This document shows, piece after piece, positions 58,112-59,881 of a DNA stretch of 64,000 nt (positions within the stretch are counted from its first letter, which is position 1; the number at the start of each line of letters is the position of its first letter). A model generated the notes under the pieces. That model ran no database searches and was not told the origin of the DNA. It saw nothing but the letters and a program-made list of their open reading frames with translations. Location: NCBI RefSeq assembly GCF_008327825.1, contig NZ_AP019827.1, positions 1,054,001 through 1,118,000 of the forward strand. The letters are read 5' to 3'. This DNA comes from Leptotrichia shahii. Its GTDB lineage: Bacteria > Fusobacteriota > Fusobacteriia > Fusobacteriales > Leptotrichiaceae. The position numbers and the translations under genes are program-made.

Positions 58112-58151
58112 TTATTAAATTTAATATTATTAAAGTATTGTGGAGGTTATT

Positions 58152-58646
58152 ATGGATTTTGAAAATAATAAAAATGAACAATGTCATTCAAGTCATGATA
58201 TAGAAGAGTTAGATAGAATAAGAAATCAAGTAATAAATAACTTTAGCTCAAATTCCAGCGATTTTTATTCTAGTTCTAATAATAATGAAAATGGCTCAGT
58301 TACCCTAGCCCTAGATGATTTAACTGTAAAAAACATAAAATTTATGGCAACCGTAATAAAAGTTTTATCAATTTTAGGAATTATAGTAGGTGTTTTTCAA
58401 ATAATAATACTATTTCTTGGAATTTTTACTATTATAATTTCAATAAAATTTTTTAAATCGGCAAATGCTCTGGAAGACACTCTTATTACAAAAAACGGAG
58501 AACAATTAAAAACATATTTCAATGAGCAGTCCAAAGCTTTAAAATTATATATTATTTTTATAATAGTCAGCATTATTATAGGCATTCTTTTTTTTAGTTT
58601 CCTTATGTTATGTGTAATAGGTGCTTTAGCCAATGATAGCTTTTAA
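58152..58646 (+). CDS. Membrane protein resembling DUF5362
   Basis: A 164-residue protein: about 60 polar N-terminal residues rich in Ser and Asn, two close membrane helices (about 67-105), a polar loop with a helix (ALEDTLITKNGEQLKTYFNEQ), and a third helix at the end. The layout fits DUF5362-type proteins. The TTG at 58140 is within the ribosome site; GGAGG before the ATG at 58152 supports that start. Function unknown. Confidence 0.65.
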   Translation: MDFENNKNEQCHSSHDIEELDRIRNQVINNFSSNSSDFYSSSNNNENGSVTLALDDLTVKNIKFMATVIKVLSILGIIVGVFQIIILFLGIFTIIISIKFFKSANALEDTLITKNGEQLKTYFNEQSKALKLYIIFIIVSIIIGILFFSFLMLCVIGALANDSF

Positions 58647-58787: not shown

Positions 58788-59732
58788 TTAAACACTTGAT
58801 ATTACAACTGTTTTTATCTTTCTAATCTCATCATAACTTGGATCAATTACGACTCCCCATATAAGGTTAACATTTTTATCCTTCACAATATCTGAGATTC
58901 TTTCTGTAATTTTTCCAATATCCACAAGCGAAACACTTGGTCCTGTCGTAAAATTTATTAAAATTCTTTTAGCATTTTCCAATTTCCCTTCAAACAAGTT
59001 ATTTTCTATAAGCTGTTCAATTATTTTCTCAACAACATTATCTCCCTTGCCTTCTCCAACCCTAATAATCGTATTCTTAGCATTATGAAGAACTGCTTTT
59101 ACATCAAAAAAATCAATATTCATAAATCCAACCTCAGTTAAAACATTTACAATACCTTCAATACCTTCCTTTATAATCAGATTTACTGTATTATAAACAG
59201 ATCCAAGCGGTTCTTTCCTATCAATATAGTTATACAATTTTTCATTTGGAATAATAATTAAACTATCCGTAAGTTTCTCAATTTTTTTCATTCCTGTATT
59301 TGCAATTTTCAAAGTTTCAAACCCTTCCAGATAAAACGGGCGTGCAACAATACTAATAGTAAAAATTTTTAGTTTTTTTGCAATCTCAAGAATAACAGGC
59401 ATTATTCCGCTTCCAGTAGATCCACCAATTCCTGAAATCAAAAATAAAATATTTGTCCCCAAAAGTAATTCCTGAAACTGGTTTTCACACTGCAATGCCA
59501 CTCTTTCAGCCTGTTCTCTGCTACATTCCTTAACACCAGTATCTAAAAAAATTTTCTTTTCCGCATGGCTCAACCCAGAATTTTCACTATCTGTATCAAT
59601 CGTTATATATTCGACTTTCTTCACACCTGAAGCTATCATAAAATTAACAAAGTTTATTCCCATCCCGCCAATTCCGATAACTTTCATATTCATCTTATCT
59701 TTCATACCGTTATCCCAATCTTGCAAATACAA
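58788..59732 (-). CDS. FtsZ-family GTPase lacking the C-terminal tail
   Basis: A 314-residue tubulin-like GTPase. T1 loop GIGGMGINFVN, T4 signature GIGGSTGSG and the T7 loop NIDFFDVKAV with both aspartates are present, so GTP hydrolysis is likely. The chain ends at ...KTVVISSV, the last strand of the fold; the flexible linker and conserved peptide that bind FtsA, ZipA or SepF are absent. The T4 loop differs from GGGTGTG. The start is unsure: TTG at 59732 follows GGGAG by 13 bases; ATG at 59705 lacks a site. A multi-spanning membrane protein gene lies upstream. No ftsA or ftsQ nearby. It may be a second FtsZ. Confidence 0.85.
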   Translation of the reverse strand: MYLQDWDNGMKDKMNMKVIGIGGMGINFVNFMIASGVKKVEYITIDTDSENSGLSHAEKKIFLDTGVKECSREQAERVALQCENQFQELLLGTNILFLISGIGGSTGSGIMPVILEIAKKLKIFTISIVARPFYLEGFETLKIANTGMKKIEKLTDSLIIIPNEKLYNYIDRKEPLGSVYNTVNLIIKEGIEGIVNVLTEVGFMNIDFFDVKAVLHNAKNTIIRVGEGKGDNVVEKIIEQLIENNLFEGKLENAKRILINFTTGPSVSLVDIGKITERISDIVKDKNVNLIWGVVIDPSYDEIRKIKTVVISSV

Positions 59733-59881
59733 ATTATATGCAAATCTCCCTTCTATTAAAGATTTTTAACATTAAAATTAAACTTTTTATAGTTATATTT
59801 TATCAAATTAAAGGTAGTATTTCAAGGGAGAAAAAAATTACAGTTAATTTAATAACTGCAACTCCTCATCCTTATTTCTTA

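Follow-up and report, generated by a model that had tools for sequence, protein, structure and literature searches.

The Z ring of most bacteria is built from one FtsZ. Tailless FtsZ paralogues are already known elsewhere. Plant FtsZ1 has no C-terminal peptide (CTP), gets to the ring through the tethered plant FtsZ2, and raises the turnover of that partner (PMC8142252). Agrobacterium tumefaciens has three FtsZ homologues, with a linker and CTP in one only (PMC13170164). The FtsZ-like protein encoded in the mamXY operon of Magnetospirillum is a tailless second FtsZ of 323 aa that is dispensable for division there; its loss leaves division normal and makes magnetite crystals smaller (PMC3905215). 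Odinarchaeota have two FtsZs with different tethers (PMC12583498). Fusobacteria do not appear among the phyla listed as having two FtsZ copies in a survey that covered FtsZ, SepF and FtsA (PMC8178401). None of the open-access papers that we searched describes FtsZ paralogues in Leptotrichia. Leptotrichia is an oral bacterium, and the DNA analysed here is a stretch of 64,000 nucleotides from Leptotrichia shahii (the window; NZ_AP019827.1, positions 1,054,001 to 1,118,000), from a genome of 2.16 Mb that is 99.96% complete.

The window encodes an FtsZ homologue, below called FtsZ2; FtsZ1 is the full-length FtsZ of the same genome. As in chloroplasts, a second FtsZ without a tethering CTP occurs alongside a tethered one (PMC8142252). 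By contrast, co-assembly has been shown for the chloroplast proteins, whereas the Leptotrichia case is known from sequence, and the two have separate origins. Chloroplast FtsZ1 also needs its GTPase activity, whereas Leptotrichia FtsZ2 has lost the T3 loop and R143. The likeness to A. tumefaciens is to a bacterium of another phylum. The Magnetospirillum protein is similar in being a tailless second FtsZ, but it belongs to a magnetosome operon and polymerises with GTP, whereas Leptotrichia FtsZ2 has no operon.

An FtsZ homologue that ends at the GTPase fold

The original prediction described the longest open reading frame at positions 58788–59732 (minus strand; 314 aa from a TTG codon) as an FtsZ homologue that ends at the GTPase fold, and this description holds. 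FtsZ2 is a member of the tubulin/FtsZ superfamily and falls within its FtsZ branch. It matches the Tubulin/FtsZ GTPase domain (PF00091; 2.6e-25, 90 bits with a cut-off of 33) and FtsZ_C (PF12327; 1.1e-13, 52 bits with a cut-off of 27), and the domain search gave no match to Tubulin_2, the domain of CetZ, TubZ and FtsZl. In a sequence search it matched solved FtsZ structures with E-values down to 4.5e-61, and an AlphaFold2 model of the monomer (pLDDT 82.7) had TM scores of 0.8–0.85 to the FtsZs of Staphylococcus aureus and Mycobacterium tuberculosis. In a tree of fusobacterial FtsZ, built without CetZ or TubZ sequences, FtsZ2 clusters with the other FtsZ paralogues found in Leptotrichia. FtsZ2 fails three features of a canonical division FtsZ, namely the equivalog score (209 bits for TIGR00065, below the cut-off of 295; FtsZ1 scores 390), the tail, and T3/R143. 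Identity to FtsZ1 is ~33%, and the C-terminal domain, which is part of the subunit interface, is the most diverged at 28%.

The predicted extent of the gene needs correction at its 5' end. The same TTG in one relative (L101) meets an in-frame stop, and in our reading of the alignment the equivalent of the downstream ATG opens most relatives; hence the TTG is probably wrong and the ATG is probably the true start (Table 1). The sequence after the upstream TTG also changes in length from species to species. The leader, which reads GGGAGATTTGCA(T)ATAATTTGTATTTGCAA and contains the direct repeat TTTGCA..TTTGCAA, is probably untranslated and is conserved nonetheless. A genome-wide search of the L. 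shahii genome for a regulon sharing this leader returned only the one site. Upstream lies a gene for a 318-aa membrane protein; between it and ftsZ2 we noted by eye a weak A+T-rich stem plus a T run, and a terminator scan of this region found none.

Table 1. Positions of ftsZ2 and its features in the window, and of FtsZ homologues at other loci.
Feature	Position	Strand	Remarks
ftsZ2 coding sequence, with likely ATG start	58788..59705	(-)	305 aa; longest ORF extends to TTG 59732, 314 aa
ftsZ2 stop codon	58788..58790	(-)	right behind the last strand of the fold, protein end ...KTVVISSV; no linker or C-terminal peptide, common to all orthologues
T1 phosphate-binding loop GIGGMGIN	59652..59675	(-)	canonical GVGGAGGN; G, G, G, G, N kept 14/14
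Shortened T3 region LDTGVKECSR	59517..59546	(-)	without the gamma-phosphate loop GAGADP of FtsZ1; C70 invariant in FtsZ2
T4 loop GIGGSTGSG	59406..59432	(-)	FtsZ1: GMGGGTGTG; family GG(A/S)(T/A)GSG, 14/14
T7 catalytic loop GFMNIDFFD	59103..59129	(-)	N, D, D (S. aureus N208, D210, D213) invariant 14/14
ftsZ2 leader GGGAGATTTGCATATAATTTGTATTTGCAA...	59715..59750	(-)	kept across 10 Leptotrichia genomes; occurs once in own genome
Promoter-like site TTGAAA-17-TAAAAT, TG before -10	59797..59825	(-)	10/12 consensus match; a consensus match only, weak, similar sites being frequent across the region
DUF5362 membrane protein gene, convergent neighbour	58140..58646	(+)	next to ftsZ2 in 10/14 genomes; not an operon partner
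FtsZ1	L004:7496-8650		384 aa
FtsZ3	L005:8949-9884		311 aa
FtsZ4	L005:3371-4225		284 aa
Mini-FtsZ	L163:5708-6394 (own genome C1:1207207-1207893)		also L165-L173; 228-235 aa
Divergent second FtsZ of another family	L126:873-1964		363 aa

The same genome has a full-length FtsZ1 and SepF

A search for a second, full-length ftsZ, the check proposed with the original prediction, was positive. FtsZ1 is encoded after murG-murC-murB-ftsQ in the division (dcw; mur/ftsQ/ftsZ) cluster, and its tail has an acidic linker and the terminal sequence ...SGDFVLPPFFEE (end also given as DSGDFVLPPFFEE; ...DFVLPPFFEE). We found SepF in the L. shahii genome and in all 40 genomes searched. By contrast, FtsA scored above its curated cut-off in none of 24 genomes of the family, versus 15 of the 16 searched from the rest of the order. 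By these searches, FtsA has been lost throughout the family and SepF retained, which makes SepF the likely anchor of FtsZ1. In the FtsA-less family, ftsZ sits directly after ftsQ. We also observed that, in Leptotrichia as in several sister genera, FtsZ1 is missing four residues before T3 (LG----KG, versus LGEKLTKG in other fusobacterial FtsZ).

Two explanations had been put forward for the tailless protein: a lineage that anchors FtsZ in a new way, or a second polymer of the tubulin type that does something else. Given that the genome also encodes SepF and, in the division cluster, a tailed FtsZ1, FtsZ2 is not the sole FtsZ; it is an extra paralogue, there is no sign of a new anchor, and we reject the first explanation. 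The second stands only in that FtsZ2 is a second, conserved and distinct FtsZ. As had been predicted, no division genes lie near ftsZ2, and a neighbourhood comparison of 14 genomes found neither genetic linkage to division genes nor a conserved operon partner. The surroundings of ftsZ2 thus offer no clue to its function.

FtsZ2 is conserved across Leptotrichia

Every one of the 13 Leptotrichia genomes has a single copy of FtsZ2, as does one sister-genus genome (57–95% identity), with close orthologues in Leptotrichia hongkongensis JMUB5056 and Leptotrichia oral taxon 879; orthologues are absent from the nine other genera of the family. The C-terminal endpoint is identical in all 14 orthologues, each without linker and CTP as the original prediction had it. 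The prediction had also allowed for a frameshift that restores a tail, but after the stop codon no frame that would give a tail is open in any of the 14 genomes. Median dN/dS (Nei-Gojobori) was 0.126 for FtsZ2, a figure restricted to unsaturated pairs, compared with 0.111 for FtsZ1. Close-pair dS of FtsZ2 resembles that of FtsZ1 (0.43 and 0.40 in one example), as expected under vertical inheritance. Invariant columns of FtsZ2 cluster in the active-site loops (30/49, versus 66/265 elsewhere; p=2e-6). FtsZ2 is inherited vertically throughout the genus, under purifying selection as strict as that on a normal FtsZ. Among viral contigs, phages and plasmids we found no close relative of FtsZ2, the best phage and plasmid matches being ordinary FtsZ at ~30% identity; hence we reject a phage or plasmid origin.

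The T7 loop is intact and the nucleotide face is altered

In T3 of S. aureus FtsZ, A71 and A73 are the residues that bind the gamma-phosphate and the catalytic water is held by G72, and R143 is arginine-finger-like; T3, Q48 and R143 lie on the nucleotide side of the interface, and N208, D210 and D213 come from T7 of the neighbouring subunit (PMC8936486). The substitutions D46A, R143Q, N208L, D210N and D213N each block assembly of that protein (PMC8936486). FtsZ2 has in common with canonical FtsZ (its own FtsZ1 and that of S. aureus) the fold, T1, a nearly normal T4, the base contacts and the T7 triad; the T1 glycines, E139, N166, Y183 and N187 are all kept. By contrast, T3 is deleted in all 14 orthologues, with A71 and G72 absent and A73 replaced by Cys, Q48 is replaced by E, K or R, and R143 is lost in 13 of the 14. 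Position 46 is D in 10 orthologues and N in four. The original prediction described the GTP-binding and catalytic loops as kept and did not mention the loss of T3, Q48 and R143. T4, which it singled out, does depart from the consensus, but the departure is mild (GG(S/A)TGSG, essentially one glycine replaced) and smaller than that of T3. Retention of T7 together with loss of T3, Q48 and R143 predicts that FtsZ2 would donate T7 to a neighbour yet would be a poor acceptor.

The L. shahii genome encodes three further FtsZ homologues, of 311, 284 and 228 aa, that have lost the GTP pocket and kept T7. The two longer ones, FtsZ3 (T4 sequence AEMGEKTGTL) and FtsZ4 (TEMSEKKNNE), are tailless and have lost T3 and the base contacts; their T7-H8 regions are 83% and 61% identical, respectively, to that of FtsZ1. 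FtsZ3 occurs in 10 of the 13 Leptotrichia genomes and full-length FtsZ4 in nine. When the longest rows were left out of the tree, FtsZ2, FtsZ3 and FtsZ4 formed one group (96/89), within which each paralogue was a group of its own; with the long rows included, FtsZ2 joined FtsZ3 and FtsZ4 weakly (56/85). The median dN/dS of FtsZ4 was 0.43, higher than that of FtsZ2 or FtsZ1. FtsZ3 and FtsZ4 are mostly neighbours, located between an msr-ccdA operon and hldE-tsaE-tsaB, and this block plus its flanks is unusually similar between species, so that it looks as if it has been exchanged. In L. shahii, conjugation-like genes and a copper-type ATPase separate FtsZ4 from FtsZ3; the two are nearly adjacent in other species.

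A possible accessory subunit of FtsZ1 filaments

The reading that we consider most likely, with a probability of about 0.5, makes FtsZ2 an accessory subunit without a tether, which would enter FtsZ1 filaments and alter their dynamics. According to this reading, gene duplication would have yielded a lineage-specific accessory protein with an FtsZ-like fold and no tether of its own, which would reach the division ring via head-to-tail joining of tethered FtsZ1 filaments. The intact T7 of FtsZ2 would dock onto the GTP of an FtsZ1 subunit and help to hydrolyse it. The pocket of FtsZ2 itself probably binds guanine nucleotide; with T3, Q48 and R143 gone, it would be unfit for the normal gamma-phosphate-driven stacking and hydrolysis. 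Each FtsZ2 that enters might then form a weak or slow joint, setting filament length, turnover or end stability. We infer nucleotide binding, co-assembly, the effect on dynamics and the division role from sequence comparisons. The accessory role is supported by the presence of FtsZ1 and SepF, by single-copy conservation under purifying selection across the genus, by the invariant T7 and the clustering of invariant columns in the active-site loops, by the loss of T3, Q48 and R143, and by retention of T7 in paralogues of the same clade, with plant FtsZ1, which also lacks a CTP, as a precedent. The low identity to FtsZ1, the divergence of the C-domain (the most diverged part, and one that contributes to the interface) and the lack of linkage to division genes argue against it. 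Moreover, FtsZ2 maintains a conserved pocket of its own kind, such that it may still polymerise alone.

The main rival, which we regard as possible but clearly less probable, takes up this last point: FtsZ2 would build its own GTP-dependent filament, independent of the Z ring, for another job such as cell shape, the envelope or chromosome organisation. Strong conservation of T1/T4 and T7 within FtsZ2, the deep divergence from FtsZ1 on a long stem branch and the distance from division genes are all consistent with such a filament, and the tailless Magnetospirillum protein, which polymerises with GTP, is a precedent (PMC3905215). However, T3 is deleted, Q48 and R143 are replaced and D46 is N in 4/14; S. 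aureus FtsZ no longer assembles when it carries D46A or R143Q (PMC8936486). Nor is any dedicated partner gene conserved beside ftsZ2.

A conditional inhibitor of division is a weaker candidate still. Produced under some particular condition, FtsZ2 would use T7 to cap the nucleotide-exposing end of FtsZ1 filaments, halting or delaying division and giving long cells. This proposal fits the retention of the T7 donor face alongside a nucleotide face that FtsZ2 has in weakened form and the sister paralogues have lost; it also fits the gene's own promoter-like site and conserved leader. However, FtsZ2 retains most of the pocket, unlike FtsZ3 and FtsZ4, and presence across the whole genus fits a constitutive role equally well.

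We consider it unlikely that FtsZ2 is self-anchored by a short terminal helix or held by neighbouring membrane proteins. OdinFtsZ1 is membrane-bound via an N-terminal amphipathic helix (PMC12583498), but from its likely start FtsZ2 has only about a dozen residues before the first strand, and its C-terminus is the last strand. The gene for the 318-aa membrane protein lies upstream in several species and the DUF5362 gene is a convergent neighbour in 10/14, but the genes upstream differ between species, and four genomes have no DUF5362 gene next to ftsZ2. We reject an operon partner as the anchor: the 318-aa gene adjoins ftsZ2 in some species only, with the weak stem and T run in between, and the DUF5362 gene is convergent and not always there. 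Lastly, that ftsZ2 is a decaying or truncated gene, a sequencing error or a mobile-element tubulin, as its shortness relative to FtsZ1 and sub-cut-off equivalog score could suggest, is very improbable given the shared endpoint, strict selection and invariant active-site loops of 14 orthologues and the lack of any close viral, phage or plasmid relative.

Other FtsZ homologues in Leptotrichia and related genera

The T7 face is kept in nearly all FtsZ2, FtsZ3, FtsZ4 and mini-FtsZ proteins, the last being the 228-aa homologue of L. shahii. A tentative reading, which we consider possible but clearly less likely than not, is that these are 'one-faced' subunits, with the pocket partly lost in FtsZ2 and lost in FtsZ3 and FtsZ4, that act as dedicated donors or caps regulating the FtsZ1 ring. 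If so, duplicated FtsZs would do the job that the unrelated MciZ or SulA does elsewhere. The Leptotrichia family, in which the nucleotide face has been lost by degrees, seems not to have been described. A genus with up to five FtsZ homologues, in which the nucleotide face is lost stepwise and T7 is kept, amounts to a natural experiment that bears on the role of each subunit face and on the control of filament ends. The setting is a family without FtsA and with SepF, and the set may also be relevant to the way in which the long cells of Leptotrichia divide.

In mini-FtsZ, the fifth homologue, FtsZ_C is the sole domain that can be recognised, and there is a T7-like loop. Mini-FtsZ follows a WYL/HTH regulator and precedes a nuclease-like gene (Mrr_cat-like or PDDEXK_4). 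Its DNA is 99.7% identical across two genera (FtsZ1 is 73% identical) and lies at varying sites, and it therefore looks mobile; it may be part of a mobile, possibly anti-phage, cassette. PADLOC recognises the WYL regulator beside mini-FtsZ, but not mini-FtsZ itself.

Other Fusobacteriaceae (genera coded g17 and g20) have a second FtsZ of 314–332 aa that, like FtsZ2, is tailless and keeps T7. Unlike in FtsZ2, T3 and T4 are largely intact and the proteins form their own tree branch, indicating a separate duplication. In a genome of another family we observed a very divergent second FtsZ (Table 1), whose T4, GLGGSTGSG, is like that of FtsZ2 but whose tail ends KIKIPDWIKG.
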